Of a stretch of DNA of 54,341 nt, positions 3,542 through 53,089 are shown piece by piece; within the stretch, counting starts at the first letter, position 1; the number at the start of each line of letters is the position of its first letter. The position numbers were made by a program, and so were the translations under genes. The notes beneath the pieces are model-generated. The model was not told the origin of the DNA. It did not search any database and worked only from the letters and a program-made list of their open reading frames with translations. The DNA comes from Falsiroseomonas oryzae (lineage in GTDB: Bacteria > Pseudomonadota > Alphaproteobacteria > Acetobacterales > Acetobacteraceae). Location: NCBI RefSeq assembly GCF_027856955.1, contig NZ_JAPSMD010000006.1, positions 1-54,341 of the forward strand, written 5' to 3'.

Positions 3542-3542
3542 A

Positions 3543-4658: not shown

Positions 4659-4723
4659 AGCCGGCGACCTTCATGAATGACGGAACTGCAACATGACGTC
4701 ACCGGGACGGTTCAGGCAAGGAC

Positions 4724-7442: not shown

Positions 7443-7500
7443 GGCGGGCGGGATCTCCGGGCAGGGGGAAGGCGCAACCTAGTCCGCTGCCGCGCCCCGC

Positions 7501-7931: not shown

Positions 7932-7932
<1 letters not shown>
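7501..7932 (-). CDS. GNAT-family N-acetyltransferase
   Basis: A 143-residue single-domain GNAT. The acetyl-CoA loop is ALQGRGVGAEVFAAL, followed by SPARRFWERQGF, the typical motif A/B arrangement. I chose the GTG at 7932 because it overlaps the TAG of the upstream aminotransferase by one base and places the first GNAT strand (IGFRPATEADF) directly at the N terminus. A longer frame would run into the aminotransferase. It lies between two aminotransferase paralogues. The acceptor substrate is unknown. Confidence 0.85.
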
Positions 7933-9230
<1,298 letters not shown>

Positions 9231-9970: not shown

Positions 9971-10016
9971 CGCGTCGTCAGGCTGGCGCGGGAGAGCGCC
10001 GGGATTGTGGCAAGGA

Positions 10017-13958: not shown

Positions 13959-14056
13959 CTCCCGGATGGGGCCGATTCGGGTGGGCAGACCCTACCACGC
14001 ATGGCCGTCTGCGCCGCGAGGCAGGACAGGATACCGCTGTTCTAGGATATTTTTCT

Positions 14057-14086
14057 TGACTTCGTTGCGCCGCCCGGGCTAGACCG
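14057..14086 (+). promoter_or_regulatory. Possible sigma70-type promoter of the phage-tail-like module
   Basis: TTGACT at 14057-14062 and TAGACC at 14081-14086 are separated by 18 bases. They sit in an otherwise GC-rich 342-base gap (13959-14300) that has a short T-rich run just before the -35. The -10 is weak (three of six consensus bases). The position suits the module at 14301-18097, whose first gene starts about 215 bases downstream. The gap must also hold the divergent potF promoter. I see no other structure in it. Confidence 0.35.
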
Positions 14087-14300
14087 GCGCTGCCACGGGG
14101 CGAGGTGCGTCCAGCCTCGCCCGGCAACACCCCCATCTCGCGCAGGCCCTGCGCCCGGCACCGCCGGCACGCAGGCCACGCGCGCCCCCGTGCCGCCCGA
14201 GCCGCGCGCGGGTGCCATCCCGTCCCTCGTCCGTACTCCCGAGGTCCCGGCACGCGCAGCCGCGCGCGCCGCGGCCGCGCGCGCCCGACCGGAGACCCGC

Positions 14301-14951
14301 ATGCCTTTCGACAACGCCTCGCTCGTCCCGCTCGTCGCCAATGGCGGGTTCACCATCTGGCTCTATCGCACCACCGATACGCGGGCGGCCGCGCTCGCGC
14401 CCGGCTACTTCGCCGGCGCCGCCGCGCGCCTGGTCAGCGGCGACGTGATGTTCCTGCAGGCCGCCGATGCGCTCACGCTGACCACCGTGCGACTGGGCAC
14501 GGACATGGCGCCGGGCCTGGTGGTGGATACCTTCGCCGTGCCCTTCCGCGTCAACCGCACCTCCGCGCAGCGCTTCTCGGTCCGGCAGGTGGCCAGCGCG
14601 GTGGCAATGAGCGTCCTGCTTGCGCCGCTCGCCGGCAACCCGATCGCCGGCGGCACCGTGCAGGCCGAGGCAGCGGTCGCGGGCCCGGTGGCGCAGGTCG
14701 CCTTCTCGATCAGCGACGCCGGCGGCACGACGGTTCGCGGGCCGCAGACGGCAGCGGTCAGCGGCGGCTCCGCCAGCGCCACCTTGCCGGCGCCGGCGGC
14801 CGGCACGGGCTACCGGCTGCGCGTGGAGGCGGTCGGCTTCCCGCAGGTCGCGGATCTCTCCGCGCCGTTCGCGGTCAGCGCGCCGTACGTGCTGCTGACC
14901 CAGGCGGGCGACGTGCTGGTCACGCAGGCGGGCGACCGGCTGCTGATCTGA
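14301..14951 (+). CDS. Phage-tail-module protein of unknown function
   Basis: A 216-residue protein with no signal peptide. The N-terminal half is a beta-rich stretch (ANGGFTIWLYRTTDTRAA). The middle (about 110-180) looks like a beta-sandwich with repeated V/A-S-G-G patterns. The C terminus contains a short internal repeat, LLTQAGDVLVTQAGDRLLI. I used the ATG at 14301, because the longer frame adds an Ala/Arg/Pro leader that looks non-coding. It precedes a tail-spike gene and two small tail-type genes on the same strand, so a structural or adaptor role in that module is likely. The family is not recognised. Confidence 0.65.
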   Translation: MPFDNASLVPLVANGGFTIWLYRTTDTRAAALAPGYFAGAAARLVSGDVMFLQAADALTLTTVRLGTDMAPGLVVDTFAVPFRVNRTSAQRFSVRQVASAVAMSVLLAPLAGNPIAGGTVQAEAAVAGPVAQVAFSISDAGGTTVRGPQTAAVSGGSASATLPAPAAGTGYRLRVEAVGFPQVADLSAPFAVSAPYVLLTQAGDVLVTQAGDRLLI

Positions 14952-15002
14952 CGGCCCCTCCCCTCCCCGCTCCCCGATCCGCGCAACGAACGAGAGGGCC
15001 CG

Positions 15003-21053: not shown

Positions 21054-22210
21054 GCGCCGGCGACACCGCCGGCGTGCCGCCCGGCATCTCCGCCGCCGCG
21101 CGCCTCTACGGCCCAGCCGAGGAGGTGGTGCATGCCGGCGAGCCGGGGCGCGAGATGTTCGTCGTGATCTCCGGCGAGGTGGAGGTGCTCGGCACGGATG
21201 GCGCGACGGAAAGCCGTCTGGGCCCCGGCGGCGTGTTCGGCGAGATCGCTCTGGTGGATGGCGGCCCGCGGATGCGCAGCGTGCGCGCCGGCCCGAGTGG
21301 CGCACGGCTGCTGCCGGTGGACGAGGCACGCTTCGTCTACCTGGTCAGCCAGCAGCCTGCCTTCGCGCTCTCGGTCATCGCGTCGCTGGTGCGCTACCAG
21401 CGCGGCACGCCGGCGCCGCCCCCCCGCGATGCCACGTTCCGTCGCGCGCCGGGCGGCTTCCAGGCCGTGGAGCTGCGGCCGGGGCTGCTGCAATTGCGGT
21501 CCCTGTCACGCGCCGCCAACGCGTACCTGATCGTCGGCGACCGCCGCCGCGTGCTGGTCGATGCCGGCTTCGCCTCGACAGCGCCGGCCCTGGCCGCGGC
21601 GCTGACCGAGGCCGGCCATCCTGCCGACACGCTCGACCTGGTGGTGCTGACGCACGAGCATGCCGACCACGCCGCGGGGGTCGGCTGCCTGCCGGCTGGG
21701 CCGCTGGTTGCCGCGCATCGGCTGGCGGCGACGAAGATCGTCCATGGCGACGACTTCGCCACGGTGCGCGACCTGTTCGGCGAGAACGCGCCCCCCGCCC
21801 GCGTGGACCTGACGCTGGAGGAGGGATCCGTCATCGCGGCGCCGCCCTGGCGCTTCACCGTCCTGCACACCCCGGGCCACACCTCCGGCAGCATCTCGCT
21901 GCACGATCCGGACAGCGGGACGCTGATCTCCGGCGACACGGTGATGGGCGGAGGCGCGCTGGGCGGCATCTTCGCGTCCGGCAACATCAGCGACTACGCG
22001 CTGTCGCTCGAGCGCCTGGCCGCGCTGCGCCCGCGGCTGCTGCTGCCTGGGCATGGCGCCGTGTCGGGCCAGGCGGAGGCGGAACTCGGCGTCGCGGTTG
22101 GCCGAGCGCGGGGGTTGCTGGCCGAGACGCGCGACATCTTTGGCGCGATGGGCAGCATGACACAGGGGTTGGAAGCGATCCTGCGCTCGGTGCGGGCGTT
22201 GGCCAGGTGA
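21050..22210 (+). CDS. Cyclic-nucleotide-binding domain fused to metallo-beta-lactamase-fold hydrolase
   Basis: A 386-residue fusion. Residues ~18-118 form a cNMP-binding beta-roll with the phosphate-binding cassette FGEIALVDGGPRMRSVRA (63-80). Residues ~135-386 are an MBL-fold hydrolase with HEHADH at 202-207, HTPGHTSG, SGDTV and PGHG completing the metal site. The ATG at 21050 overlaps the stop of the CoA-transferase/GNAT gene, so the proteins are made together. A ligand-gated hydrolase acting on a CoA thioester or related metabolite is a reasonable guess. The substrate and the nucleotide are unknown. It ends 24 bases before the left attachment repeat of the island. Confidence 0.85.
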   Translation: MSAGDTAGVPPGISAAARLYGPAEEVVHAGEPGREMFVVISGEVEVLGTDGATESRLGPGGVFGEIALVDGGPRMRSVRAGPSGARLLPVDEARFVYLVSQQPAFALSVIASLVRYQRGTPAPPPRDATFRRAPGGFQAVELRPGLLQLRSLSRAANAYLIVGDRRRVLVDAGFASTAPALAAALTEAGHPADTLDLVVLTHEHADHAAGVGCLPAGPLVAAHRLAATKIVHGDDFATVRDLFGENAPPARVDLTLEEGSVIAAPPWRFTVLHTPGHTSGSISLHDPDSGTLISGDTVMGGGALGGIFASGNISDYALSLERLAALRPRLLLPGHGAVSGQAEAELGVAVGRARGLLAETRDIFGAMGSMTQGLEAILRSVRALAR

Positions 22211-22233: not shown

Positions 22234-22263
22234 GCTGGTGCTGCTGGAGAGGATTGAACTCTC
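22234..22263 (+). repeat. Left attachment site (attL), tRNA-Thr 3'-end fragment
   Basis: Thirty bases identical to 53013-53042. They cover the T-arm, acceptor strand and encoded CCA of tRNA-Thr plus two flanking bases. No tRNA body is present here, so this is the displaced copy produced by integration. It lies 24 bases after the stop of the CNB/MBL gene. Confidence 0.9.
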
Positions 22264-23074: not shown

Positions 23075-23440
23075 CTACCCCGCCGCGAACATCAGGCGCA
23101 GGTCGCGACGCGCCCCGGCCGGCACCACCGCGACGAACAGGATCGCGCCGCCTGTCCCGGCCAGCACCTTCGCCCGCACGCGCCGCAGGTCGGCGAGCGC
23201 CGCGTCCACCTGGGCCGCGAGCGCCGCGCGGTCGGGCTCGTCCATCCCGGCGGCACAGTCCGCCACGTCGCGCATGAGGTCCGCGAAGGTGTGCCAGGCG
23301 TCCTGCCTTGCCTCGTCCCGCTCGAGCTCGTCGGCGCCGACCACCTGATGCACCGCCGCCGCTGCCGCCATCCGCACCAGCTCCGTGCCGGTGGCGGGTC
23401 GCATCGGCGGCAAGGGTCCCGGCCCTTCACCCCAGGGCAT
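23075..23440 (-). CDS. Small protein of the ku operon, unknown (hypA)
   Basis: A 121-residue protein, mostly helical, with two likely long helices (about 24-65 and 70-95). It then has a hydrophobic strand, ILFVAVVPAGARRDLRLMF, at the end. I used the ATG at 23440, which overlaps the SRAP-like gene by 14 bases. An alternative ATG at 23404 gives a 109-residue form without overlap. No known family is recognised. Its place between the SRAP-like gene and hypB makes cotranscription with ku likely. Confidence 0.6.
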   Translation of the reverse strand: MPWGEGPGPLPPMRPATGTELVRMAAAAAVHQVVGADELERDEARQDAWHTFADLMRDVADCAAGMDEPDRAALAAQVDAALADLRRVRAKVLAGTGGAILFVAVVPAGARRDLRLMFAAG

Positions 23441-24101
23441 GGGGATGTGCCCCCAGCTTTGACGTCGCAAGGTCCGTCCGCTGCTCGCGCGGCGCCCAGA
23501 AGCGGCTGCCGGGAGCCCAGTCGGCGAGCTGCCGCGCCACTGGCAGCGGCGATGGCCGGGATTGCGTGCCCCGGACCGCCTGGGCGCGCAGCCACGCCGG
23601 CGGCGCGGGGCGCTCGACGAGGGCAAGGTCCGCCGCGGTCAGCGCACCCTCGGCAATCCAGCTCGGCCACATCGACGCGGGCAACAGCACCGGCATCCGG
23701 GCGTGCGCCGGTGCGAGAAGCTCGTTGGCCTCCGTGGTGACGATCGCGAAGCGCGGCCCGCCGGGGCCGTCCTCCCACACCGCCGCGATAGCGACGCTCA
23801 CCCCGTCCGCGACCCGCACCGCGATCGGCGTGCGCTTCACCCCGCGCTGCGTGTAGCCGTCCATCGCGACCAGGCAGCGCCCGCGCCGCGCCATGCGCCG
23901 CCCGCGCATCCGCTCGACCGGCACCTGCAGCACCGGGCGGCGCGGGTCCGATGGCGTGGGGATGCCCCAGCGCATCGCCGCGGGCACCACATCGCCCGTG
24001 TCGGGCGCGCGCATCAGGACGAGGCAGGGATCCCCGGGCCGCCGGTCGTAAGGCGGCACGCCGAGCACCTCCGGCTCACCCTGCAGCACGCCGCGGGGCA
24101 T
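23427..24101 (-). CDS. Degenerate SRAP-family (YedK/HMCES-like) protein
   Basis: A 224-residue SRAP-fold homologue. Landmarks are PPYDRRPGDPCLVL (usual YNxAPxQ strand), MRWGIPTPSD, RCLVAMDGY (usual RCLVPADGFYEW) and VTTEANELLAPAHARMPVLLP (usual TTEAN..HDRMPVIL). Canonical SRAP proteins start MCGR, and Cys2 crosslinks abasic sites. Here residue 2 is Pro, the supporting Asn is Asp19, and the Glu of FYEW is Gln85, while the histidine H133 is kept. The protein is therefore probably unable to make the canonical thiazolidine crosslink, though it may still bind DNA. The start overlaps the ku 3' end by 26 bases. An upstream ATG at 24140 adds 13 residues and no MCGR. Confidence 0.8.
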   Translation of the reverse strand: MPRGVLQGEPEVLGVPPYDRRPGDPCLVLMRAPDTGDVVPAAMRWGIPTPSDPRRPVLQVPVERMRGRRMARRGRCLVAMDGYTQRGVKRTPIAVRVADGVSVAIAAVWEDGPGGPRFAIVTTEANELLAPAHARMPVLLPASMWPSWIAEGALTAADLALVERPAPPAWLRAQAVRGTQSRPSPLPVARQLADWAPGSRFWAPREQRTDLATSKLGAHPHALG

Positions 24102-25011
24102 GGGAGCCTCCCTTGCGGGGCGGCGCGCGGCGCTCCCCACTGCCGCCCCCCTTGGCGGTGCTCCCCTTCTTCGCCGCGCCCCGCGCTGGCGCGGCCCGGC
24201 GCTCTTCCTTCTTGTCGCTCGCCACCGGGCCCTGCGGCGCCTTCAGCGATCGGCGCAGCGCCTCCATGAGGTCGATGACGTTGCTCTCGGCCGGCTCCTG
24301 CGTCGGCCGGTGGACGACGCGCTCGCCCTCGGCCTTGCTCTCGACCAGCTCGCGCACGGCCTCCTTGTAGCGGTCGTGGAACTCGGCCGGGTCGAAGGGC
24401 CCCTTGGCCTGGGCGATGATCTGCTGGGCGATCTCGACCATGCGCTTGTCGATCTTCACCTCGGCGATCGTCTCGAAGGCGTCGTCCTCGCTGCGCACTT
24501 CGTCGTGGCTGTGCAGGGTGGAGAGCAGCATGCCCTTGCCGCGTGCCTCGACGGCGACGATCCGCTCCCGGCTGGACATCACCAGGCGGCCGAGGGCGAC
24601 CTGGTGCTCACCGCGCATCGCCTCGCGGATCACCGCATAGGCGTCCTGCGCGGGCTTGCCGTCGGGCACGAGGTAGTAGGGCTCGTCCCAATAGAGGCGG
24701 TCGATCTCGCGGCCGTCCACGAAGCGCTCGATGTCGATGACCTTCGTGCTCTCCAGCTTGAGCTTCTTCAGCTCCTCGTCCTCGACGACGACATACCTGT
24801 CCCGCTCGACCTGGTAGCCGCGCACCAGGTCCTTGCGTTCGACGAGGCCGTCATCCGGGTCCTTCCAGGCCTGCCGGACGCGGTTGAGGGTCTCGCGGTG
24901 CAGGAGATTGAAGTGGACCTGATCGCCCTCGCCCACCGCCTTGAAGAGCCGGACAGGGCAGGTGACGAGCGACAGTCGAAGGTGCCCCTCCCATGTCGGT
25001 CGTGCTGCCAT
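24076..25011 (-). CDS. ku: Bacterial Ku, non-homologous end-joining protein
   Basis: A 311-residue Ku protein that forms a homodimeric ring on broken DNA ends and recruits LigD. It starts MAARPTWEGHLRLSLVTCPVRLF, the standard Ku N terminus, which is why I chose the ATG at 25011 over the in-frame ATG 117 bases upstream. The beta-barrel core (about 1-200) contains GYQVERDRYVVVEDEEL and RLYWDEPYYLVPD. The C-terminal end is a long Lys/Arg/Gly/Ala-rich tail after NVIDLMEALRRSL, as in extended Ku proteins that bind DNA more tightly. It leads a four-gene minus-strand operon and faces ligD across a 300-base gap. Confidence 0.95.
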   Translation of the reverse strand: MAARPTWEGHLRLSLVTCPVRLFKAVGEGDQVHFNLLHRETLNRVRQAWKDPDDGLVERKDLVRGYQVERDRYVVVEDEELKKLKLESTKVIDIERFVDGREIDRLYWDEPYYLVPDGKPAQDAYAVIREAMRGEHQVALGRLVMSSRERIVAVEARGKGMLLSTLHSHDEVRSEDDAFETIAEVKIDKRMVEIAQQIIAQAKGPFDPAEFHDRYKEAVRELVESKAEGERVVHRPTQEPAESNVIDLMEALRRSLKAPQGPVASDKKEERRAAPARGAAKKGSTAKGGGSGERRAPPRKGGSHAPRRAAG

Positions 25012-25314
25012 GCGCGTGGTCTCGCCTGCGGTTGGTGTCGATCGTCGGGTGGTGAACGGGGGCCCGGATCGGGCGGTTTCTGTCTCTGTTCCGTCGCAGG
25101 CAGCTGACTGGAAGCTCGTGTTTTTCATGCGCTTTCCGGCCTAGTCGGCTGGACTCATTCCCAAGTTCGACAGGCGCTGGCGAACCGCCTCTCATTTCGC
25201 AGCCGAGGCTGTGGATATGTGGATACTGTGCGGATTCGGGCGGGCAACGGCCACCCAGCCGCTGCGACCGCCTGTGCAGATCGGCGTTGCCATCGTGCTT
25301 CCCGGAAGCCGCGG
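25012..25314. other. Divergent intergenic region between ku and the ligD side
   Basis: About 300 bases between outward-reading genes, so it should hold promoters for both the ku operon and the 25315-28307 genes. The minus frame continues open upstream of the ku ATG, but that extension has no Ku similarity. I see no clear -35/-10 pair or dyad operator. Confidence 0.4.
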
Positions 25315-25743
25315 ATGATCCGACTCGCGAACCTCACGTTCACGGCACTTCTCGACCACGTGCACGCGCGGCTGCTCCGCACGGCACGTGGCCGCAGCGC
25401 GCTGCCAGCGCGCGCCTACCTTGCCGACGAGGCGGGACACGTGACGATGGTCGGACTGCCGGCGCTGGAGGGCACGGCGGAGCACGAGGCGGCGGGGGCC
25501 GTGCTCGGCGTCCTGATGCGCGACCACGCGGCAGCCCATGCCGTGCTGCAACTGCCCCACCTTGCGGACCAACCGGATGGCGCCGAGGAGATCGTCGGGC
25601 TCTACGCCATCGGCGCGGCTGGGCGCGCGCTGGGGCAGCGCCGGTTCGCGGTGGAGCGTGGCGTGGACGGCCGCATCGCCCGTCTCGTGCAGCTGGCCAC
25701 GCCGCGCGGGCGGCAGACCAGGGCCGCCTCGGCGGTGGGCTGA
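25315..25743 (+). CDS. Unknown protein between ku and ligD
   Basis: A 142-residue protein starting [20 protein letters not shown], with an alpha/beta pattern and histidine-rich middle ([31 protein letters not shown]). I chose the ATG at 25315 because upstream in-frame sequence is Arg/Ala-rich and unlike protein. No family is recognised. It is followed by ligD after 47 bases on the same strand, so an NHEJ-linked role is possible but rests only on position. Confidence 0.55.
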
Positions 25744-25790
25744 GGCGCCGCCCCTCAGAACGCAACCGCAAGGGAGGCGTTCAGGCGGTC

Positions 25791-28307
25791 ATGGCCCCAC
25801 GCTCCTCCGCTTCGCGGGCGACGACGCCCGACCCGCTTGCTGCCTATCGCGGCAAGCGCGACTTCTCCCGCACGCCGGAGCCGCGCGGCGCCCCGGCGCC
25901 GGCGCGCGCGGCGGGGCTGCGCTTCGTCGTCCAGAAGCACGATGCGACAAGGGTGCACTTCGACCTCCGGCTTGAGCTCGGCGGCGTCCTGAAATCCTGG
26001 GCGGTGACGCGCGGCCCCTCCCTCGACCCGGCGGACAAGCGCCTGGCGGTCCAGACGGAGGACCACCCGATGGACTACGCCCGCTTCGAGGGCGCCATCG
26101 AGGAGGGCTACGGCGCAGGGACGGTGATGGTCTGGGATGAGGGCAGCTGGGGGCCGGCGCCGCAGATCCCCGACGCTGCCGAAGCGCTTGCGAAGGGCAA
26201 CCTGAAATTCGTGCTGCACGGCACGCGGCTGCGCGGCGGCTGGGACCTCGTGCGCATGAAGCCGCGGCCGAAGGAACGAGCGCCGCAATGGCTGCTGATC
26301 AAGCGCCGCGATGACGAGGCCCGGCCCGGCGCGGGTGGCGTGCTCGTCGAGGAGGCGACGACCTCCGTCATCAGCGGGCGCACAATGGAGGCGATCGCGG
26401 CGGGTAAGCCTGGGGTTGCACCGAAGGCTGGTGCACCGACGAAGACCGCAGGACGCGCCGCGACACCGAAAGCCGGTGCCGCCGCGCCGCTGGGCTTCGT
26501 GTCGCCGCAGCTCTGCAGGCTGGTGGACCGCGCGCCGGAGGGCGAGGGCTGGCTGCACGAAGTGAAGCTGGACGGCTACCGCATCATCGCCGTGATCAAG
26601 GACCGCAGGACGACGCTGTGGACAAGGAACCGCAACGACTGGACCGCGCGCTTCCCCGAGGCCGCGGCCGCGCTGGCGCGGCTCGGCGACTGTGTCCTGG
26701 ATGGCGAGCTCTGCGCGCTCGACGAGGCGGGCAACCCCGATTTCGGCATGCTCGGCTCGGCGATGGAGCAGAAGGCGACCGCCGACCTCGTCTACTTCGC
26801 CTTCGACCTGCTCGCGGCCGGCGGCGAGGACCTGCGCGACCTGCCGCTGACGCAGCGCAAGGCCCGGCTGCAGCGCATGCTGGCGAAGGCGCCGCCCGCG
26901 CTGCGCTACGTCGAGCCCTTCGCGGCGGCCGGCGAGGCGGTGCTGCGCAGTGCCTGCCGCATCGGGCTGGAAGGCGTCGTCTCCAAGCGCGCCGACGCGC
27001 CGTATCGCCCGGGCGACCGCGGCGGAGACTGGGTGAAGGCGAAGTGCCGCGGCAACGACGAGTTCGTGGTGATCGGCCATGGCGAGGGCGCGAAGGGCCG
27101 CCTGACGCTGCTGCTTGGCGCCTGGCGGGGCGGCAGGCTGGTCCATCTCGGCCGCGTCGGCAGCGGCATCGGCGCGCGGGAGACCGAGAAGCTGCTGCGT
27201 CTGCTGAAGCCGCTGCGCCGCGACGCGCCGGCGGCGGCGGGCGTGCCGGCGAAGGAGCGCCGGGCCACGACCTGGGTGGAGCCGCGCCTCGTGGCGGAGA
27301 TCGACTACACCGGCTGGACCCCCGACGGCTTGATCCGCCAGGCGAGCTTCAAGGGCCTGCGCGAGGACAAGCCGGCCGGCGAGGTCGGCGTGCCGCGACC
27401 GGACGAGCCACCGCCGCCCACCACGCCCGCGAAGCGCCCGGCATCGAAGGCGGCGGCCGGCGGCATCACGCTCACCAACCCCGACAAGCTCCTCTGGCCG
27501 GAGGAGGGGATCACCAAGCGCGACCTCGCCGCCTACTACGCCGCCGTGGCGGAGCCGCTGCTAGCCTATGCGGGGGGCCGGCCGCTCTCCCTGGTGCGCG
27601 CGCCCGATGGCATCCACGGCCAGCGCTTCTTCCAGCGGCACGCCATGGCCGGCACGTCGCATCTGATCCGCCTGGTCGAAGTGGCCGGAGAGACGAAGCC
27701 GCTGCTCGCGATCGAGCGGCCGGAAGCCTTGCAGGCGCTCGCGCAGGCCGGCGTGCTGGAAATCCATCCCTGGGGCTCGCGGGTCGGCGACGAGGACCGC
27801 CCCGACCGGCTGGTCTTCGACTTCGACCCGGATGAGGGCCTACCCTTCGCGCAGGTCGTGGACGCCGCGCTGGAGATGCGGCAGCGGCTGGAGAAGCTCG
27901 GCCTCGGCGCCTTCTGCAAGACGACGGGCGGCAAGGGCCTGCATGTGGTGGTGCCGCTGACGCCGCGCGCGTCCTGGGCGGAGGCGAAGGCGTTCTGCCG
28001 GGCGATGGTCGAGCTCATGGCAGCCGACAGCCCGGAGCGCTTCACGACCAGCTTGGCGAAGCGCGCGCGGGCAGGCCGGATCTTCCTCGACTATCTCAGG
28101 AACGACCGCGGAAGCACAGCCGTCGCCGCCTGGTCGCCGCGTGCCCGTCCCGGCGCGACGGTCTCGATGCCGGTGTCCTGGCGCGAGGTCGGGCCGAAGC
28201 TCGATCCGGGCGCCTTCACCATCGGCTCGGCTCCGGCGGGAGTGCGGAAAGCCACGGTCTGGGATGGCTACAACGCTGCGGCACGGCCGGTTCCGGCGCT
28301 ACGCTGA
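25791..28307 (+). CDS. ligD: Multifunctional NHEJ DNA ligase D (phosphoesterase-ligase-polymerase)
   Basis: An 838-residue LigD with all three domains. The 3'-phosphoesterase spans about 38-185 (H50, H56 and D58 in [14 protein letters not shown]). The ATP-dependent ligase spans about 235-540 (adenylated lysine K259 in EVKLDGYR, motif EGVVSKR, and the OB-domain end). The primase-like polymerase spans about 556-830 (metal pair in [32 protein letters not shown]). It trims, fills and seals ends held by Ku. The domain order PE-Lig-Pol is that of Pseudomonas LigD. The ATG at 25791 is used because the longer frame overlaps the preceding gene. Confidence 0.95.
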
Positions 28308-37433: not shown

Positions 37434-37661
37434 TTAGGACGGGCCGTTGACGTCGATGGTGGCGCCGGTGAGGTGGCGCACCTTGCCGGTGACGAGGAAG
37501 GCGATCAGCTCGCCGAGGTCTGCCGGCCGCAGCCGTTCGCCCGTGGTCAACCCGGCGGTGACCTTGTCCTCCCCGCCCGAGATCGCCGCCGCATCCACGC
37601 TCCGACGACGCCAAGCCCTGAGCGCCGCCTGACGGATCGCGGATGGGGTGGCCCAGCCCAC
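37434..37661 (-). pseudogene. C-terminal fragment of a short-chain dehydrogenase
   Basis: The minus frame ends GELIAFLVTGKVRHLTGATIDVNGPS, a standard SDR C terminus (A-F-L-x-S..-x-I-T-G..-x-V-D/N-G). The Rossmann GxxxGxG and YxxxK motifs are missing upstream, so only the last third remains. It sits at the junction between the liv operon and the low-GC origin-like region, consistent with truncation by recombination. Confidence 0.7.
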
Positions 37662-44468: not shown

Positions 44469-45746
44469 CTACAGCAATGTCCGCGGCAGCCACAGCACCA
44501 CGTCGGGGACGTAGGTGCTGAGCAGCAGCATGAGGATCAGCGGGATCAGCGGGATCCAGACGACGCGCGAGATCTGCATCACCGACCGCCCGGCGACGGT
44601 GGACGCCACGAACAGGCAGATCCCGTAGGGCGGCGTGACCAGGCCGATGGAGAGGTTGATCGCGACCACCACGCCGAAGTGCAGCGGATCCACGCCCATC
44701 GCGATGGCCACCGGCATCAGCACGGGCATCAGGATCAGCAGCGCGGAGATGCTTTCCATGAACATCCCGACGACCAGTAGCAGCAGGTTCGCCGTCAGCA
44801 GGAAGGCCCAGGCCGATCCGACGTTCGCCTCGAACCAGGCGCTGATCAGCCGCGGCACGTCCTGCACCGCCACCAGCCAGGAGAAGATCGAGGCGGTGCC
44901 GATAATGATCATGACCGCGGAGGAGATGCCGGCGGTGCGCAGCATCATCCCCGGCAGGTCGGCGAGCTTCATCTCGCGATAGACGAAGAGGCCGATGAAC
45001 AGCCCCGCCACCACCGCCAGCGCAGCCGCCTCGGTCGGTGTGACCACGCCGCCGATGATGCCCACCACGACGATCACCGGCATGGCCAGCGCCGGCAGCG
45101 CGGCGACGAAGGCCTGGCCCAGGCGCCGCAGGCTGAACGGCTCGGCATCCGCGTAGCGCATGGGCTCGCGCCGCGCGTAGAGCCAGTGGCCCACCATCAT
45201 GCCTGCCGCGCCGATCAGGCCCGGCACGACGCCGCCCAGGAACATCGCGCCGACCGACAGGTCGGAGATCATGGCCAGCACCACCATGATGATGGAGGGC
45301 GGGATGATCGGCCCCAGCGCGCCCGCCGCGGCGACGGTGGCGGCGGCATAGTCGATGTCGTAGCCGCGCCGCCGCATCTCCGGCAGCAGGATGGAGGAGA
45401 CCGCCGCCGTATCCGCACTGCCCGAGCCGGAGATGGCCGACAGCCCGGTGGCGGTCACCGTCGAGACCATGAAGAGGCTGCCGCGGATCCAGCCGACCAG
45501 CGCCGTGGCCAGGCCCACCATGGCGCGCGCGATGCCGCCCTGCTCCATGATCAGCCCGGCCAACACGAAAAAGGGGATCGCCAGCAGCGGGAAGCTGTCG
45601 AGCCCGTTGTAGAGGCGCTGCGCCACCACCACGAGCGGCGTCTGGCCGGTGACTGCGAGCGTCAGCGCGCCGGCCACGCCGAGCACGAAGACCATCGGCG
45701 CACCGGCGACGAGTAGGGCGAGAAAGGAGCCGAAGGTGAGCAGCAT
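44469..45746 (-). CDS. TRAP transporter large permease (DctM type)
   Basis: A 425-residue integral membrane protein with about twelve hydrophobic segments. Typical DctM stretches are PFFVLAGLIMEQGGIARAM, ISGSGSADTAAVSSILLPEM, LGPIIPPSIIMVV and GLVTPPYGICLFV. The start ATG at 45746 shares one base with the stop of the small permease (TGATG). It is the sodium-coupled transport subunit. Confidence 0.93.
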   Translation of the reverse strand: MLLTFGSFLALLVAGAPMVFVLGVAGALTLAVTGQTPLVVVAQRLYNGLDSFPLLAIPFFVLAGLIMEQGGIARAMVGLATALVGWIRGSLFMVSTVTATGLSAISGSGSADTAAVSSILLPEMRRRGYDIDYAAATVAAAGALGPIIPPSIIMVVLAMISDLSVGAMFLGGVVPGLIGAAGMMVGHWLYARREPMRYADAEPFSLRRLGQAFVAALPALAMPVIVVVGIIGGVVTPTEAAALAVVAGLFIGLFVYREMKLADLPGMMLRTAGISSAVMIIIGTASIFSWLVAVQDVPRLISAWFEANVGSAWAFLLTANLLLLVVGMFMESISALLILMPVLMPVAIAMGVDPLHFGVVVAINLSIGLVTPPYGICLFVASTVAGRSVMQISRVVWIPLIPLILMLLLSTYVPDVVLWLPRTLL

Positions 45747-46270
45747 CAATCCAGCCTCACCCCGCCGCCGCCCGTCACCGGCGCCCGTCCGAGCACGGCC
45801 GCCCCAAAGGCGAGCACCGCCTCCAGCCCGAAATAAGCGGCGCTGACCGGCAGAGCGATGTAGGGGATCTGCATCGAGATCTGCAGGGCCGCGCTCGTCT
45901 GGATGGCGCCGACCTCGATGAGCTGCAGCCCGCCCTCGAACACCACCCAGAGGAACCAGAGGCAGAGCGCAGCGACCGGCACCAGCAGTGCCCGCGCGAC
46001 CGCCGGCGGCAGCATCGCCACCAGGACGTCGATCGACACGTGCAGCCGCGACCGCATCGCATACCCGGCGCCGAGCAGCACCATCCAGATCTGCGCGAAG
46101 GTGGCGAGCTCGGTCGCGCCGGCAATGGAGAAGTTGAAGACGTAGCGCCCCGCCACCTGCACGAGCACCGACACGACCATCACCGCGAGGAGCAGCATCA
46201 GGCAACCGTCAACGACCCGACGCAAGGCGCACAGGACGAGCTTTGCCGCCTGGAGGCCAGGCAATGCCAT
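45746..46270 (-). CDS. TRAP transporter small permease (DctQ type)
   Basis: A 174-residue membrane protein with four helices and the DctQ signature VAGRYVFNFSIAGATELATF. It is followed by RSRLHVSIDVLVAMLP. I chose the ATG at 46270 since it puts a short basic N terminus before the first helix. A longer frame adds 30 residues of unconvincing sequence. First gene of the operon that runs to 39475, so the promoter should lie in 46271-46471. Confidence 0.88.
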   Translation of the reverse strand: MALPGLQAAKLVLCALRRVVDGCLMLLLAVMVVSVLVQVAGRYVFNFSIAGATELATFAQIWMVLLGAGYAMRSRLHVSIDVLVAMLPPAVARALLVPVAALCLWFLWVVFEGGLQLIEVGAIQTSAALQISMQIPYIALPVSAAYFGLEAVLAFGAAVLGRAPVTGGGGVRLD

Positions 46271-46471: not shown

Positions 46472-47464
46472 CTACACCGCGTCCGGCCTCATGTTCGGCT
46501 CGATCGTCCCCGCTGGCAGCCCGCCCAGGTCCAGCCAGCCGAACTCGACCTGCAATTCCGCCCGCGCCACTGCCTCATTCAGCAGCGGGAACACGTGCTC
46601 TCGCAGCAGCGGGTGGATGTCGGCGCTGGCGAGCCGTGCCCGGATGCGGCGGCTGCCGCAGATCTGAGCGAGCGTGACGGCGTCCCGCGAAAGGCCCTGC
46701 GCCGCCGGCTTCAGCCCGATCCGCCCGCGCCGCAGATCCTCGAGGATCGCCGCATAGAAGAGCAGCTCGGAAAGCGCGCCCACCGTCGCATTGCCAGGCG
46801 CCTTCAGCTCAAGCAGCCAGACATCGCCTGCGGCATCACGGCCCAGCAGGTCGATCGCGCTCTTGCTGGCCGTGAAGATCTCCGTGCCCTTCGTCACGAC
46901 CCGATCGAAGACGCCGACGGCGACCTGGCGGTCCAGGGCCGTCACGCCGGTCCGCTCCTCCAGCCAGCGCCGCTCCGGCGTGCCGGGCTGCGCGAGGCGC
47001 TTCTCCAGCCACGCCTCGGAGCCCTCCGCCGAGGCACCCTCGCCACCGCCCGAGGACCGGTTGAGGACCGGCACGGCGTCGGGAGCGCCGAAGGGTGCGA
47101 TGGCGTCGGATGGCATCGTCACCAGGTCGACCTGCGCCTCGCCCATCAGCGCCGCGAAGCGGACCAGACGATAGAGGAAGCGCCGATAGTGCCGCAGCGC
47201 GACCGGTCCTGCGTCTCGCTGCGGCGGCTCCCAGGCGATCCGCACGCCGCCCGCGCCCAGCCACGCCATCAGCGCCAGCGCCCAGCCCTCGAAGGCCGCG
47301 GCGTTCGTCTGCATGTTCGCCGCGACACCCGCGGCGGAGAGGGTGAGCGTCGGCCGGTGTCGCTCGCCGTCGACGCGCAGCGTCCGCTCGGCCGGCAGCT
47401 TCACGCCCTTGGCGTGCGGCAGCGCCCTGGTGAGCTCGGCGCTGAACTCGGCATGCGTCGGCAT
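46472..47464 (-). CDS. PD-(D/E)XK nuclease-like protein A
   Basis: A 330-residue soluble protein. The core AIDLLGRDAAGDVWLLELKA gives D205, E219 and K221 in the D-x(13)-E-x-K arrangement of PD-(D/E)XK nucleases. A helix (ALSELLFYAAILEDL) follows, as expected for the fold. The N-terminal half (1-145) has no recognised domain and may be specificity-determining. It starts 10 bases after the ADP-ribosylglycohydrolase gene and is the last gene of a three-gene coupled operon. Nuclease activity is inferred from the motif. It is not one of the named restriction families I can identify. Confidence 0.7.
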   Translation of the reverse strand: MPTHAEFSAELTRALPHAKGVKLPAERTLRVDGERHRPTLTLSAAGVAANMQTNAAAFEGWALALMAWLGAGGVRIAWEPPQRDAGPVALRHYRRFLYRLVRFAALMGEAQVDLVTMPSDAIAPFGAPDAVPVLNRSSGGGEGASAEGSEAWLEKRLAQPGTPERRWLEERTGVTALDRQVAVGVFDRVVTKGTEIFTASKSAIDLLGRDAAGDVWLLELKAPGNATVGALSELLFYAAILEDLRRGRIGLKPAAQGLSRDAVTLAQICGSRRIRARLASADIHPLLREHVFPLLNEAVARAELQVEFGWLDLGGLPAGTIEPNMRPDAV

Positions 47465-47474
47465 CGCGGATCGG

Positions 47475-48545
47475 TCAGTGCCCGGGATAGCGCGCCCAGG
47501 CCTCGCCGGGATCGAACAGGCCCGTTGCCGCCGCGTCGAGGTCGGCGCCGACCTGCGCGATCTCGTCCCGGAGTTCGAGTGCGGCGAGCCAGGCCGCCGG
47601 GATCGCCGCGTCGCCGAGGACCGCGCCGAGCAGGTTGCCGGCTATGGCGCCCGTGCTGTCGCTGTCGCCCGAGTGGTTCACCGCCAGCCGGAGCCCAGCC
47701 GCCAGGTCGCTGCCGGCGGCCAGCGCGCAGCAGACGGCGATCGCCAGCGCCTCCTCCCCGACCCAGCCGCCGCCGAGAGCCCGCTCGATCTCCTCCGCCG
47801 TCGGCGTCCGGCTGCCGTCGCCCGCGAGACCCCTCGCCGTGTCGAGCGCCCGCAGCGTCTCCTCCGCCCCGGCACGGCGGCGGAGCAGCGCGGTCGCGTC
47901 GTCCAGCGCGGCCGGAAGCGCCTGCCCCTCGATGAGCCCTGCGACCGTCGCGGCCAGCACGCCGGCCGGCAGCGATCCGCTCGGATGGCCATGCGTCAGG
48001 GCGGCCACGTCCACGCCGAGTTCGAACACGGCATCCAGGTCGCCGACCGGCAGCAGCCCGACCGGTGCCGCGCGCATCACCCCACCGCAGCCCTTGCTGG
48101 CGTTCCTCGCCGCTGCTGGCTGGCCGAACCCCTTCGCCGCCTTCAATGCGGCGAGGCAGGTCCTGCCCGGGGCGCGCGGATGGTGCAGCGCCTCGAGGCT
48201 CCAGAGCCAGCCATTCGTCGCGACAGCAACTCTCCCGGAGCCCAGCCGCTCGCCCTGGGTCAGCAGCCAGCGGAGATAGGCGTGATGCACCACGGACGGC
48301 ACGTGGCAGATGCCCTTCTCGCGCTGCCGCACCCAGGCGCGCAGCAGCCCCTCGGCGGTGAACAGTGTCATCTGCGTGTCGTCGGTGATCGCCCCCACGC
48401 GACCATAGGCCGGCGCGTAGTCGCGGATGCCTTCGGGCCCGAAGCTGGCCCGGATGGAAGCAAGCGACATGAACTCGACCGGTGCCCCGAGCGCGTCGCC
48501 CACGGCGCCGCCCAGCAGGCAGCCGATGCGGCGCGACAGGGCCAT
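47475..48545 (-). CDS. ADP-ribosylglycohydrolase family protein (DraG/ARH-like)
   Basis: A 356-residue enzyme of the ADP-ribosyl-hydrolase fold. The N-terminal motif GCLLGGAVGDALGAPVE (8-24), the first metal site TDDTQM (D55, D56), ASKGCGGVMRAAPVG, and the second metal site SGDSDSTGAIAGN near the C terminus are all intact. A working dinuclear Mg2+ centre is therefore expected. The family removes ADP-ribose from arginine, serine or nucleic-acid bases. The ATG at 48545 is used because it shares one base with the stop of the upstream gene. No ADP-ribosyltransferase or nitrogenase-linked DraT is nearby. Confidence 0.9.
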   Translation of the reverse strand: MALSRRIGCLLGGAVGDALGAPVEFMSLASIRASFGPEGIRDYAPAYGRVGAITDDTQMTLFTAEGLLRAWVRQREKGICHVPSVVHHAYLRWLLTQGERLGSGRVAVATNGWLWSLEALHHPRAPGRTCLAALKAAKGFGQPAAARNASKGCGGVMRAAPVGLLPVGDLDAVFELGVDVAALTHGHPSGSLPAGVLAATVAGLIEGQALPAALDDATALLRRRAGAEETLRALDTARGLAGDGSRTPTAEEIERALGGGWVGEEALAIAVCCALAAGSDLAAGLRLAVNHSGDSDSTGAIAGNLLGAVLGDAAIPAAWLAALELRDEIAQVGADLDAAATGLFDPGEAWARYPGH

Positions 48546-49354
48546 CACGCCGCGACCTGCGCGGGCAGGCTCCGCGCCAGCACCCACATCGGCGTGTCAT
48601 CCACGTCGATCTCGCGCTCCCACATCGCAGACGGGAACACCCCGGCCGTCTCGGCGTGCAGCACCGCGCGCCAGTGGTCGCCGTCGCGCAGCATCGCCGC
48701 CGCGCCCGCGACCGCCGCGTCGCCGGTGAAGCCGAGATAGACCAGCACGACCGGCACGCCGCTCGCGGCCAGCCTCCAGGCCCAGGCGATCCTGTTCGAG
48801 AACTGGTAGTGCCGGTCGCGTGAGATGCGCACGCCGGCCGCCTCGCCGCCCAGCGCCTCCGCCGCCTCGCCGATCGCCGCGCCGATGCGCTCATGGTTCT
48901 TCAGGTTGGAGCTGGGCGTCAGCGGCTTGCCCGCTGCGGCCCCGACGATCTCCTTCAGGTGCGCCTTCGCCTCGACCAGCACCAGGCCCTGCCGGCCATC
49001 GGGGAAGGTGGCCACGACGGCCAGATCCCAGGTGGGCTCCTTCGTCGTCGGCTTGTCCACGGCAAGCCACCAGCCACGCAGTTGCTTTCCCACCGCGCCG
49101 TCCAGCAACGGCGGCGCGACCGGCACGCCGAGCATTGCCTCCCTGGGGTCAACGCGGCCAAGAGGCCGGCGCGGGGCGGCAGGCGCCACGACCACGCCGG
49201 TCGGCTCCAGCAGGCTGTTGAGCGAAGTGGCGAAGCCCGGCTCGCCCATGCCGATCCAGTCGAGCACATGCCGCGCGCTCCCGGCGGTCGCGGCCTTCTG
49301 CATCGTTGCCATGCCGTTGAGCATGCGGAATGTCGCGGTGGCCGTCGAGAGCAT
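48545..49354 (-). CDS. PD-(D/E)XK nuclease-like protein C
   Basis: A 269-residue protein (from the ATG at 49354). The core EPTWDLAVVATFPDGRQGL followed by VLVEAKAHLKEI gives D110, E128 and K130, the PD-(D/E)XK triad. HYQFSNRIAWAWRLA supplies the glutamine-containing helix common in restriction-like folds, then PVVLVYLGF. Internal ATGs at 49324, 49312 and 49303 are possible starts and keep the whole core. Its TGA shares one base with the glycohydrolase ATG. First gene of the three-gene unit. Not visibly homologous to protein A outside the core. Confidence 0.7.
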   Translation of the reverse strand: MLSTATATFRMLNGMATMQKAATAGSARHVLDWIGMGEPGFATSLNSLLEPTGVVVAPAAPRRPLGRVDPREAMLGVPVAPPLLDGAVGKQLRGWWLAVDKPTTKEPTWDLAVVATFPDGRQGLVLVEAKAHLKEIVGAAAGKPLTPSSNLKNHERIGAAIGEAAEALGGEAAGVRISRDRHYQFSNRIAWAWRLAASGVPVVLVYLGFTGDAAVAGAAAMLRDGDHWRAVLHAETAGVFPSAMWEREIDVDDTPMWVLARSLPAQVAA

Positions 49355-49370
49355 GCAACAAAACGACTGC

Positions 49371-49493
49371 TCAGCCCGCGCGGCTGAACTGCGCTGCCAC
49401 CTCCGCCAGCACGCCCTCCACCTCCTCCCGGTTCGCCACGTCCACCATCCCGTCCTCCCGGTCGAGGCCAAGCCGCCGCAGGAACAGGAACAT
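49371..49493 (-). CDS. Possible 40-residue small protein upstream of nuclease C
   Basis: ATG at 49493 to TGA at 49371 encodes a protein beginning MFLFLRRLGLDREDGMVDVA and ending in a helix (REEVEGVLAEVAAQFSRAG). The amphipathic pattern and charged composition look protein-like. It could be a tiny gene translated just before nuclease C or the tail of a decayed gene. No clear SD is seen. Confidence is low. Confidence 0.35.
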   Translation of the reverse strand: MFLFLRRLGLDREDGMVDVANREEVEGVLAEVAAQFSRAG

Positions 49494-49789: not shown

Positions 49790-50335
49790 TCATACCTCAT
49801 CCCGCCGCCGCCGCACCGGCGTGCGGTCCTCGAGGTCGGCCTCCATCACCGGCACTCCTGCCTCGAGCAGCGCCCGCGCGATGAGTTGCTTCTGCGTCAA
49901 GCCTCGCTCCTTCGCGACCCTGGCGATCGCCAGCAGCGTGCCTTCGCGGAAGCGGTGGCTCAGGACGTTCGAACGGTTGGGGTCGAGCCCGTGAAGCTCG
50001 GTGCCCCAGGGCGTCACCGGCACCGCGGGAACCCAAGGGCCCACTGGTGCTGTGTGCTGCTCGGCGTGACTGCGGCCGGGATCATCGTCGCCACCGACAA
50101 TGCCGTAATCGTCGAGCCAGAGGCGCACCAGCAGAGCCGGGTCGAGACCGAGCGCGAAGGCCAGCGCAGGCACGCTGTCGAGGGGCAACAGGACGTCGCC
50201 CCGGCGCATCTCGGCAGCGACCCTGGAACCCAGGACTGCCGCGATGGCGGCATCGGTCTCGGGAGAGGCTGGGGCGAGCTGATCGAGAGCCACGAGGAAT
50301 GCACCGCGGCGCACGTCGTGCAAGTCGGTGGTCAT
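49790..50335 (-). CDS. Putative regulator with XRE-like N terminus and ribbon-helix-helix-like C terminus
   Basis: A 181-residue protein. Residues ~10-75 (RGAFLVALDQLAPASPETDA to LDPALLVRLWLDDY) match the layout of the neighbouring 103-residue protein and look like a divergent XRE-type helical domain. Residues ~125-165 (HRFREGTLLAIARVAKERGL, then TQKQLIARALLEAGV) look like a ribbon-helix-helix DNA-binding domain. A two-domain repressor or antitoxin is a plausible reading. It lies 16 bases after 50352-50663 and upstream of the nuclease/glycohydrolase operon on the same strand. Confidence 0.6.
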   Translation of the reverse strand: MTTDLHDVRRGAFLVALDQLAPASPETDAAIAAVLGSRVAAEMRRGDVLLPLDSVPALAFALGLDPALLVRLWLDDYGIVGGDDDPGRSHAEQHTAPVGPWVPAVPVTPWGTELHGLDPNRSNVLSHRFREGTLLAIARVAKERGLTQKQLIARALLEAGVPVMEADLEDRTPVRRRRDEV

Positions 50336-50351
50336 GATGACGGCGCTCCGC

Positions 50352-50663
50352 TCAGGTGCTGGCCTGCCGCTGCTCGCCGAGCACTTCGTCGAACAGCGGC
50401 AGCAGCCAGGCGGAGTGTCCCCCGAGCCAGACGCGAGTCAGCGCGAGGTGATCCGCGCCGATCGCCTCGGCGATCGCGCGCAGCTTGCTGCCAGGCACGG
50501 TGATCAGCCCGCCATGCGCACCCGTCAGGGCCGCGAGCGGCAGTCCGACGGTCGCGGCGACATCCTCGACGCGGCGCCCGGACAGGGTGGTCAGCCGGTT
50601 CACTTCACGCAGGAACGCGCCGCGCACTGGAACACCGGGAAGGCGGGTGATCGCGTTGGTCAT
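50352..50663 (-). CDS. Small XRE-like putative regulator, paralogue of the next gene
   Basis: A 103-residue protein with RGAFLREVNRLTTLSGRRVEDVA, a helical HTH-like core (VAATVGLPLAALTGAHGG), then VPGSKLRAIAEAIGADHLAL and TRVWLGG. The same order is found in the first 75 residues of the protein at 49790-50335, so the two are paralogues. I chose the ATG at 50663 because GAGAGAGA precedes it at SD distance. Likely DNA-binding. The target is unknown. Confidence 0.6.
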   Translation of the reverse strand: MTNAITRLPGVPVRGAFLREVNRLTTLSGRRVEDVAATVGLPLAALTGAHGGLITVPGSKLRAIAEAIGADHLALTRVWLGGHSAWLLPLFDEVLGEQRQAST

Positions 50664-51128
50664 GTGTCTCTCTCGCTGTTCGATTCCCCGAGCATCGGGC
50701 CACACGAGAAGTATAGAGCGCGCGCTGCACCCGCGCCCGAGCTTCGCGACCCGGTCCGTCGGAGATGTGCAGCGGACCGCCACCTGCGCAGAACCCATGC
50801 ACCCCAGCACTTCGATCACATCCGGCGCAGCGCGCGAAGCGCCTCTGGACGGCGCGGTAGCCCGTTCACCGCGATCGACGGGCGCCCCCGCCTCTCAGCG
50901 ACGGCAAGCCGCCGCCACCCGCTCACCGCCGGGAACGGCTGCGATCCGGCACAGCACCATAGGACAAAGTCCTATCGCCGTTCGCGCCGTCGCACCCGGC
51001 TGCAGGCGCCACCTGGCGCTTCGGCGGGTGACCCTTGGAGCGCCAGCCGGGGTCCTGCGACAGGGTGCGAGAAGTGCGATTGTCGATCGCGCGCATTCAC
51101 TGGGTAAACGGCGAGCAATCGTGCCGTT
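50664..51128. promoter_or_regulatory. Non-coding gap with a perfect dyad (50959-50975)
   Basis: About 465 bases between the small regulator and the integrase stop. The dyad ATAGGAC-AAA-GTCCTAT at 50959-50975 has perfect 7-base arms and is A/T-rich relative to its surroundings. It resembles an operator for a small dimeric repressor or a short terminator of convergent transcripts. No gene or other repeat is seen in this gap. Confidence 0.4.
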
Positions 51129-52934
51129 TCATCGCGAAAGGCTGCGATACAGGTCTCCACCTGGCGGCAAGCGCTTCGTCAGGCCATCAACAGGGGGCGG
51201 GTCCGGTCGGTAGACTAGGTCGCCTTCCGCCCAATGAATGCGAGCCTGCTCGATGGCCTTGGATGCCAGGAGCGCCCAGGCAGCGACAATGTCGAACGCC
51301 AGCGATCCGCGGGGAACCTTCTTCCTGACCATCAGGCCGACGATCTCTTCGGCGGCGGCGCGCCCCGCCGCGACACCCGTCTCCGCATACCCGATCTCCA
51401 CAGCCTCGATACGGCGGCTCGCATCCTCGGCCGTCATGTGCGCGTGGTGTTCGGCCAGCTCGGCGTCGCTGGCGTCCTCTGGAGCGACCGCGGATGCGAA
51501 AGAGTGGTCAGCAAAGAGGCGGTATGCGGCGCTGACTTTGCGCTCGAACCATGCCTGCATCGCCGCCTGCACGTCATCCACCCAGCGGGGCTGCGGCAGG
51601 ACCTCGACCGGTGAGAGTGCAATCTCTGGCGAAGGCGAGGCGCGTGGCGAGCTCAGGGGGGACGGAATGCGCTGGAGGTCATCCAGCACCTCGTCAGGCA
51701 TCCCTCGAAAGCCCCTGCCATAGCCGTCGCCGGCATTGCGAGGATTATGGCGGCCGGTGATGGCGTCGATGATCTCCGGGTGTGCCCTGATCTTCCGCAG
51801 TTCATCCTGGATGCGGTGTCGCCAGGAGTGAGCCGGCGCCACCGCCGGGTCGGTGATGCCCACGATCGCCTTGAGCCAACGTCCGTGCTGGTTCTGGGCT
51901 GTCGTGGTGCGGGTCCCGTCCGCCGCTACGCGGAGATCACCGAAGAGCGGCGCAGTGCGATCGGCATGACAAGCGTCGGCACGGGTCCGGACAAAGTCCA
52001 GGAAGCCCTCAACCTGGAGCGCCGGGTGAACTGGCACCATGCGCTGGAACACGCTGTTCTTTCCTGCCCGGACCTCGAGCGGCACGAAGTCGAACACCCA
52101 GATTGCCTGTGCTGTCTTGCCTGGCTTCCGGCAGATTTCCTCTCTGACATCGCACAGGCGAAGCTCGGCTGCTTCGCTGAGGCGGCAGCCAGTGAAGGCC
52201 AGGATCCACGGCAGCCACCGCAGCCAGCCGCGCTCCTGCCGGCTCGCTTCAAGGATGCGCCGCGCATGCTCGTCGCTATACGGTGCCCGCGGTGCCGGGC
52301 CGCGCCGCTTCGGCTTGGGCGCCAGCCCCTGGAAGGGGCTGCTCGCGAGCCTTCGGTTCTTGACCGCCCAGCTGCACACGGCACCGCAGGCGAGGATGTC
52401 GTCCTGAACGGTGCCGGGGTCGCGGCCCTGCTTCAGGCAGGCCTCCTTGAATTTCACGACGTCGTCGGGCATGAGCCGACTGATGTCATCGAAGCCGACG
52501 ATCGCCGCGAGTTGCCGAAATGCCGCCCCATACTTCTTCAACGTGGCGCTCGACGGCTGCTGCTCGAGACTCCAGGCATCCAATAGCGCCAAGCCCGTCA
52601 GGACAGGCCCGGCGACGGCACCACCTTTCGCGGGCTCTTGGGGCATTGTCCCGGCCGGCATACCGGCCTGCTCCGCGGGAGCAACCGCGACATGCCTCGT
52701 TGTCGCCGGATTCGCCTGGCCCTGGTCGGCAGACCTGGCCGCGGCAATCACAGCCTCGAATTTCGCGATGACGTCCGCCGCCCGGCGCTTCGCCTCCACT
52801 CGGTCCTTGGTTCGCAGGCTCTCGGTCAGTTCGCGCTTGCCGACGACAGAGCGCAACGGCGCGGGCACGCCCTTCCTCACCCAGTAAACACCGGTTCTCG
52901 CGTGTCGGGTGGTTCGGGTCATGGCCAGGGCCAT
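51129..52934 (-). CDS. Tyrosine-type site-specific integrase of the island
   Basis: A 601-residue integrase. The N-terminal part (HARTGVYWVRKGVPAPLRSV) is the short arm-binding-like domain, followed by a core-binding domain and a catalytic domain. Numbered from the ATG at 52934, the catalytic residues are R251 (FTGCRLSEAAEL), H369 and R372 (HSWRH), H396 (GRHNP) and Y405 (GDGYGRG). About 195 residues follow the tyrosine, which is unusually long. I chose 52934 because the upstream extension is built from the arm-site repeats. It lies beside the intact tRNA-Thr and recombines the 30-bp site. Confidence 0.92.
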   Translation of the reverse strand: MALAMTRTTRHARTGVYWVRKGVPAPLRSVVGKRELTESLRTKDRVEAKRRAADVIAKFEAVIAAARSADQGQANPATTRHVAVAPAEQAGMPAGTMPQEPAKGGAVAGPVLTGLALLDAWSLEQQPSSATLKKYGAAFRQLAAIVGFDDISRLMPDDVVKFKEACLKQGRDPGTVQDDILACGAVCSWAVKNRRLASSPFQGLAPKPKRRGPAPRAPYSDEHARRILEASRQERGWLRWLPWILAFTGCRLSEAAELRLCDVREEICRKPGKTAQAIWVFDFVPLEVRAGKNSVFQRMVPVHPALQVEGFLDFVRTRADACHADRTAPLFGDLRVAADGTRTTTAQNQHGRWLKAIVGITDPAVAPAHSWRHRIQDELRKIRAHPEIIDAITGRHNPRNAGDGYGRGFRGMPDEVLDDLQRIPSPLSSPRASPSPEIALSPVEVLPQPRWVDDVQAAMQAWFERKVSAAYRLFADHSFASAVAPEDASDAELAEHHAHMTAEDASRRIEAVEIGYAETGVAAGRAAAEEIVGLMVRKKVPRGSLAFDIVAAWALLASKAIEQARIHWAEGDLVYRPDPPPVDGLTKRLPPGGDLYRSLSR

Positions 52935-52956
52935 TCGTAGCACCCCTTTGTAGCAC
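52935..52956 (+). repeat. Integrase arm-type repeats upstream of the integrase start
   Basis: TCGTAGCAC (52936-52944) and TTTGTAGCAC (52947-52956) lie in tandem directly before the integrase ATG. The 11-mer CTTTGTAGCAC at 52946-52956 recurs at 22322-22332 inside the left end in the same orientation. They are candidates for the integrase N-terminal-domain binding sites and may also control the integrase promoter. Confidence 0.5.
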
Positions 52957-53012
52957 TGAGGCACCCTGAAGGCCTTGGAAATCCTGATTTCTTCGCGGTT
53001 TCAGCCACTTGG

Positions 53013-53089
<77 letters not shown>

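Follow-up and report, generated by a model that had tools for sequence, protein, structure and literature searches.

Phage ADP-ribosyltransferases commandeer host proteins, and host systems that reverse the modification have been predicted, among them bacterial conflict systems centred on an ADP-ribosylglycohydrolase (ARH, denoted ARG in that work) without a genomically coupled transferase (PMC9503650, 2022). According to the passages of that study devoted to ARG-centred systems, Nudix or WYL regulators are found in more than 42% of them and phosphatases in slightly more than 55%; further partners are chaperones and restriction-fold genes of variable kind, among them a new restriction endonuclease family that evolves rapidly. 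The systems were proposed to reverse viral ADP-ribosylation, the nucleases serving as a second line. Here, we describe a three-gene operon of Falsiroseomonas oryzae, located on the minus strand at positions 46472-49354 of a 54,341-nucleotide stretch of contig NZ_JAPSMD010000006.1 (hereafter, the window), in which an ARH gene (B) is placed between genes for a candidate (C) and a possible (A) nuclease. The operon fits the core of the ARG-centred systems and probably also their effector part, and we consider it an even chance that it represents a compact variant of these systems. Accordingly, the central idea of the original prediction made from the letters of this DNA, namely, that a nuclease pair tied to reversible ADP-ribosylation would be new, is already largely in print as a prediction (PMC9503650, section 3.8). 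What appears to be new is the compact nuclease-ARH-nuclease arrangement, the rare family of A, and C as a partner-changing protein that probably has a restriction fold.

Gene layout and the ADP-ribosylglycohydrolase

The reading frames of C (48545..49354, 269 amino acids), B (47475..48545, 356 amino acids from the ATG at 48545) and A (46472..47464, 330 amino acids) are open over their full lengths and follow each other in the order C-B-A on the minus strand. The stop codon of C and the start codon of B overlap by one base in the junction GCGTGATGG (TGATG), and 10 bases separate the stop of B from the start of A, which confirms the coordinates and junctions of the three coupled genes as originally predicted. 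A GTG at 48548 offers an alternative start for B. The annotated start of C at 49354 appears to be too early, because most of its relatives begin at or shortly before residue 24 and because residues 1-23 of the C model have a predicted local distance difference test score (pLDDT) below 50; translation probably begins at one of the later ATG codons, at 49312 or 49303. A promoter scan found none and was uninformative. C, B and A are presumably carried on a single transcript.

By its sequence, B is a canonical ARH with intact metal-centre motifs. It matches PF03747 (ADP_ribosyl_GH) over positions 1-286 of the 287 in the profile (E 3.3e-74; 250.6 bits, cut-off 26.2) and carries no additional domain ahead of the ARH. 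Its motifs T54-D55-D56, T184-H-G-H (184-187) and G293-D-S-D-S (293-297) align with a solved dinitrogenase-reductase glycohydrolase chain. TDD 54-56 and GDSDS 293-297 support the intact metal centre of the original prediction. The DxDS/T motif comprises D294, D296 and S297 and, together with the equally intact TDD, presumably binds the metal. Against the DraG equivalog TIGR02662, B scores 87.3 bits, far under the cut-off of 337.05. When the genome itself was searched with B, the sole match at E <= 0.001 was B.

The two nuclease-like proteins

No family was found for C in Pfam, PADLOC or PHROG, and NCBIfam yielded one unrelated model far below cut-off; seven rows of the C family compared with Pfam gave one stray match. 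Relatives at 30-56% identity keep D110, E128, K130, E135, Y183, Q184, N187 and R188. Of these residues, D110, E128, K130 and Q184 are invariant, and for the first three this holds in 7/7 rows of a first alignment and in 8/8 rows of a second one, which omits L021, a locus with a stop. A GSxxHxLDW start motif is common to 7/7 rows of the C alignment and is not kept in the relatives from viral contigs. The model of C built from the 7-row alignment (pLDDT 82; predicted template-modelling score 0.83) was compared by VIA with the candidates supplied by Foldseek itself, and rows 1-14 of the 50 were restriction-endonuclease-like, with Z from 6.1 to 4.0: BstEII (Z 6.1), EndoMS (Z 5.6), PaqCI, SfsA, Can2, McrC, EcoO109I and R.BspD6I are among these matches. 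SfsA we take to have a restriction-endonuclease-like fold. A search of PDB sequences with the C profile returned an oxidoreductase as its best match (E 0.62). Judging from the model, C probably adopts the PD-(D/E)XK fold.

For A, this fold is plausible, as suggested by the residues D205, E219 and K221 in its C-terminal half; the N-terminal half is well conserved and of no known domain. The sole other full-length A, found in genome G573 from another family of the class, is 34-37% identical in three alignments, and the three motif residues are kept in 2/2 full-length sequences. The motif stretch weakly matches NucS (E 0.02) and PDC-S11 (E 0.0014), neither of which recurred with the homologue, no convincing relatives of A were found among PDB sequences, and a single-sequence model reached a pLDDT of 41. 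Of the two PD-(D/E)XK nuclease-like proteins originally proposed, C gained support from motif, model and VIA, and A from the motif only. The D...E-x-K cores (D205/E219/K221 in A, D110/E128/K130 in C) are present as described, and the proteins indeed differ otherwise: homology between A and C, which was considered, was rejected, the profile comparison giving a probability of 0.6 on a scale of 100.

Relatives, their neighbourhoods and the island

A is rare. In genome samples that overlap one another, it was found in 1/299 genomes of the order (the own genome), in 3/385 of the class (the own genome, G573 with a full-length copy and G532 with a weak piece containing stops), in 2/349 of the phylum by profile search (own and G573), in 1/149 of the family of G573 (G573 itself) and in 1/70 of the family of the window (own). 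C is present in 6/299 genomes of the order, in four of them at full length, window included, and at seven loci in genome_contigs; viral contigs yielded seven matches to the C alignment, three of them near full length, none to C as a single query and none to A. In plasmids, neither A nor C of the window had a match, nor did the A of G573, whereas a relative of C matched partially at a single locus (L028). At E <= 1e-20, an ARH is encoded in 8/250 genomes of the order and 3/190 of the class, the own genome being counted in both. Locus counts leave out an A fragment on contig C24, the partial A of G532 (2 stops) and weak partial copies of C in G214 and G281.

Besides the window, there are 11 near-full-length C loci (L014, L016-L022, L062-L064; L021 with an internal stop), and neither A nor B was detected at any of them by tblastn, with little flanking sequence available to one side of C in L018, L022 and L064. 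Five of the 11 are restriction-type loci: C adjoins type I HsdM/HsdS in L022 (407-4512), stands in the rows HsdM-HsdS-C-McrBC in L062 (1220-8729) and HsdS-C-HsdR in L063 (3562-8806), and lies beside HNH genes in L020 and L021, the latter also with a Schlafen-type helicase. In L017, one neighbour has no family and another has PLD and helicase matches just under cut-off; in the remaining five (L014, L016, L018, L019 and L064), where the neighbours were mostly judged by eye from translations, no restriction gene was seen. The positions of C beside or between type I subunits in L022, L062 and L063 suggest that the C family is an unnamed accessory restriction protein.

Sixteen ARH regions other than that of the window were compared (L015, L023-L027 and L042-L051; L042 and L050 are short contigs and L051 is an ARH fragment alone), and C occurs in none of them and A in one, L015. 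A DSP-type phosphatase domain directly precedes the ARH in 8/16 regions, and WYL or Nudix is present in at least 5/16. WYL regulators were found at three (L023, L026 and L027) of the five plasmid ARH loci examined, out of 17 records, and Nudix genes at L015 and L048; in L027, genes for a PDDEXK_1 protein and for a helicase annotated as UvrD follow, and the genes surrounding the plasmid ARH L024 are ordinary-looking. An IMG/VR contig (L052, 2073-7095) contains a row of McrB-like AAA, McrC and ARH genes, the ARH being 55% identical to B and bearing an extra N-terminal region of ~270 residues; none of ten viral-contig ARH loci carries A or C. The WYL, Nudix, phosphatase, PD-(D/E)XK/UvrD and McrBC partners of the B relatives are thus of the same kinds as those listed in the passages of PMC9503650 on ARG-centred systems.

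The single region shared by A and another ARH (L015 of G573, 2845-16960) encodes a TOTE-type S1-domain protein, an XRE regulator, A, a metallo-beta-lactamase reading frame overlapping the end of A, a phosphatase-ARH fusion and, on the opposite strand, a Nudix gene whose NrtR winged-helix match is below cut-off. The locus also contains a SNF2 gene and a weak match to GIY-YIG, and it has the look of an island-like conflict region. Past A, the distance is 2.6 kb to the start of the fusion gene and ~3.2 kb to the ARH domain encoded by it. The probability that an ARH lies no more than 4 kb from a randomly chosen place is roughly 4e-5 to 6e-5, and the true chance is higher because defence genes cluster. 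In a 16-row ARH tree, B groups with unfused ARHs from the same taxonomic family, L042 among them (support 84/90, unstarred), and a 100/100 split separates it from the fused ARH of G573, so that A accompanies two ARH lineages, a pattern compatible both with a general functional tie to ARHs and with stacking in islands by chance. Little can be said about the neighbours of L042, the closest ARH of all (67% identical to B), because its contig is 3.7 kb long.

The operon lies in a ~31-kb island, delimited on the basis of a 30-bp exact repeat, and is close to the end at which the integrase is encoded. The presumed attachment repeat (53013..53042) is at the 3' end of a tRNA-Thr gene and adjoins the integrase (51129..52964, minus strand; DUF6538 N-terminus, XerC/XerD matches below cut-offs), and an exact copy of this tRNA-Thr end at 22234..22263 presumably marks the far end. 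As far as scanned, the island carries mixed cargo: SRAP, Ku and LigD (DNA repair), a lipocalin-like protein, TauD dioxygenase and TRAP transport. The location proposed in the original prediction therefore held, whereas the term 'defence island' is not supported, given the families found, the absence of any family for 5/10 open reading frames (ORFs) in one cargo scan, and the fact that the scans covered part of the island ORFs. No ADP-ribosyltransferase domain was detected in the neighbouring genes scanned, a set without 44469-46205, and the own genome, a draft of 1040 contigs, contains no DarT, one control genome being positive; these results agree with the earlier remark that no transferase is nearby. 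A search for DraT found none in the genome and was uninformative, the controls being negative as well.

Several other features of the window were recorded. Directly upstream of C is a terminator-like hairpin (49369..49389, minus strand), which is weak, with one found against a mean of 0.8 in shuffles. Between the integrase and C, two small, intact-looking minus-strand ORFs (49790-50335 and 50352-50819), with no family above cut-off, are possible regulators. At the opposite end of the island (23427-28307), the SRAP and Ku genes, both on the minus strand, lie together with LigD on the plus strand and form an end-joining set that is possibly mobile. On contig C24 of the same genome, a degraded A-like piece (~21981-22130; L009/L031) lies beside an SDR-like gene, and a similar SDR-like remnant was recognized by eye from translations at 37434-37661 of the window; a related island may thus exist elsewhere in the genome.

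Competing explanations and known systems

Under the reading that we favour, a compact ARG-centred system, B would take ADP-ribose off host molecules modified by the transferase of an invader, and C and A, produced from the same transcript, would act as restriction-endonuclease-fold effectors, a second line, cutting the DNA of the invader or, suicidally, that of the host. The coupling of the genes and the placement of the sole other full-length A near a phosphatase-ARH fusion and a Nudix gene support this reading, as do the family of B, the partners of its relatives, the restriction-type loci in which C relatives lie and the model of C; the joint action of the three genes, phage ADP-ribosylation as the trigger, the nuclease fold of A and DNA cutting by A and C are what we infer. 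Several observations weigh against it. Co-occurrence of the three genes in other genomes, on which the original prediction had been staked beforehand, did not materialize: a conserved C-B-A trio is rejected on the data searched, having been seen at no other locus, and A with an ARH recurs once. L043 and L044, among the ARHs closest to B, have no A or C nearby, and the neighbouring genes scanned include no recognized WYL or Nudix regulator, phosphatase or chaperone. The Z scores of C are modest (all below 8, with unrelated folds appearing from about 3.7), and Foldseek gave no match to its model at E <= 0.001. The nuclease fold is a possible one in A, whose homologue in G573 has no Pfam family and does not repeat the weak PDC-S11 match. 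Finally, among the open-licence PMC papers listed in literature searches, none showed an experimental test of ARG-centred systems or reported the trio. A bolder version, a three-protein immune unit in which detection or removal of phage ADP-ribose is tied to DNA cleavage by two PD-(D/E)XK nucleases with no WYL or Nudix sensor, and in which A is dedicated to ARHs, seems doubtful to us.

Alternatively, three defence-type genes may simply have been stacked near an integrase, in one coupled row but sharing no mechanism, with C moving freely and joining any locus. The 11 other C loci with neither ARH nor A, five of them with type I restriction-modification, McrBC or HNH genes, the B relatives L043 and L044 and the presence of A with ARHs on both sides of the 100/100 split all speak for such accretion, yet the 1-base overlap and the 10-base gap couple the genes, and the only full-length A outside the window also lies near an ARH; on balance, we find it somewhat unlikely. 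The position of B, which sits between and adjoins both nuclease-like genes, would also suit an antitoxin-like enzyme removing an ADP-ribose mark from a host-toxic A and/or C or from DNA, and hydrolases of its superfamily are partners in DraT-DraG, as mentioned in PMC9503650. Such a guarded nuclease is improbable, given that no ADP-ribosyltransferase turned up among the genes scanned, that the genome yielded no DarT, and that C relatives occur with no ARH nearby. Still less credible is type IV-like restriction, with A or C cutting ADP-ribosylated invader DNA and B erasing the marks on host DNA: the ARH beside McrBC in L052 and a bacterial ARH-like enzyme that took phosphate-end ADP-ribose off RNA are in its favour, but the ARH-like enzymes tested in the same account were inactive on guanosine-base ADP-ribose in RNA (relevant passages of PMC11833690). 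If B were simply a DraG-type regulator of metabolism or nitrogenase that is present here by chance, the shared superfamily and the 87-bit match to TIGR02662 would be explained; however, the score is far below the 337-bit cut-off, the gene resides in a mobile island between nuclease-like genes, and several B relatives, L024 excepted, are in conflict-type contexts, all of which make this explanation very hard to credit.

As a compact ARG-centred system, the operon would be a three-gene minimal version, with intact eraser motifs and two candidate effectors, that is easy to clone and allows a direct test of whether ARG-centred systems defend and whether the eraser is needed for a nuclease to act. 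Of interest in its own right is the C family, which is restriction-fold-like, recurs in type I, McrBC and HNH loci and matches neither Pfam nor PADLOC families beyond chance level.

Among the known systems, DraT-DraG and DarT-DarG likewise involve an ADP-ribose-removing hydrolase, but B scores well under the DraG equivalog cut-off, no DarT was found in its genome, and DarG is, as stated in a passage of PMC11833690, a macrodomain or NADAR protein rather than an ARH. The C model resembles EndoMS/NucS, BstEII, Can2 and McrC in its probable core fold (VIA Z 6.1 to 4.0) and in the D...E-x-K motif, whereas its profile has no PDB sequence match better than E 0.62. In the McrBC-ARH row of L052, the partners are McrB-like and McrC proteins instead of A and C and the ARH is N-terminally extended, yet there, too, a B-like ARH (55%) directly follows a two-gene restriction system. 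The ARG-centred systems differ from the operon in their recognized regulators, phosphatases and chaperones, of which regulator and phosphatase are optional, given their frequencies in PMC9503650, and here the ARH has a restriction-fold-like gene on either side; the published Nudix, WYL and phosphatase partners are displayed by G573 and by the plasmid relatives of B. With these systems, the operon shares the ARH core with no coupled transferase found, the tightly linked candidate restriction-fold genes and the variable make-up.

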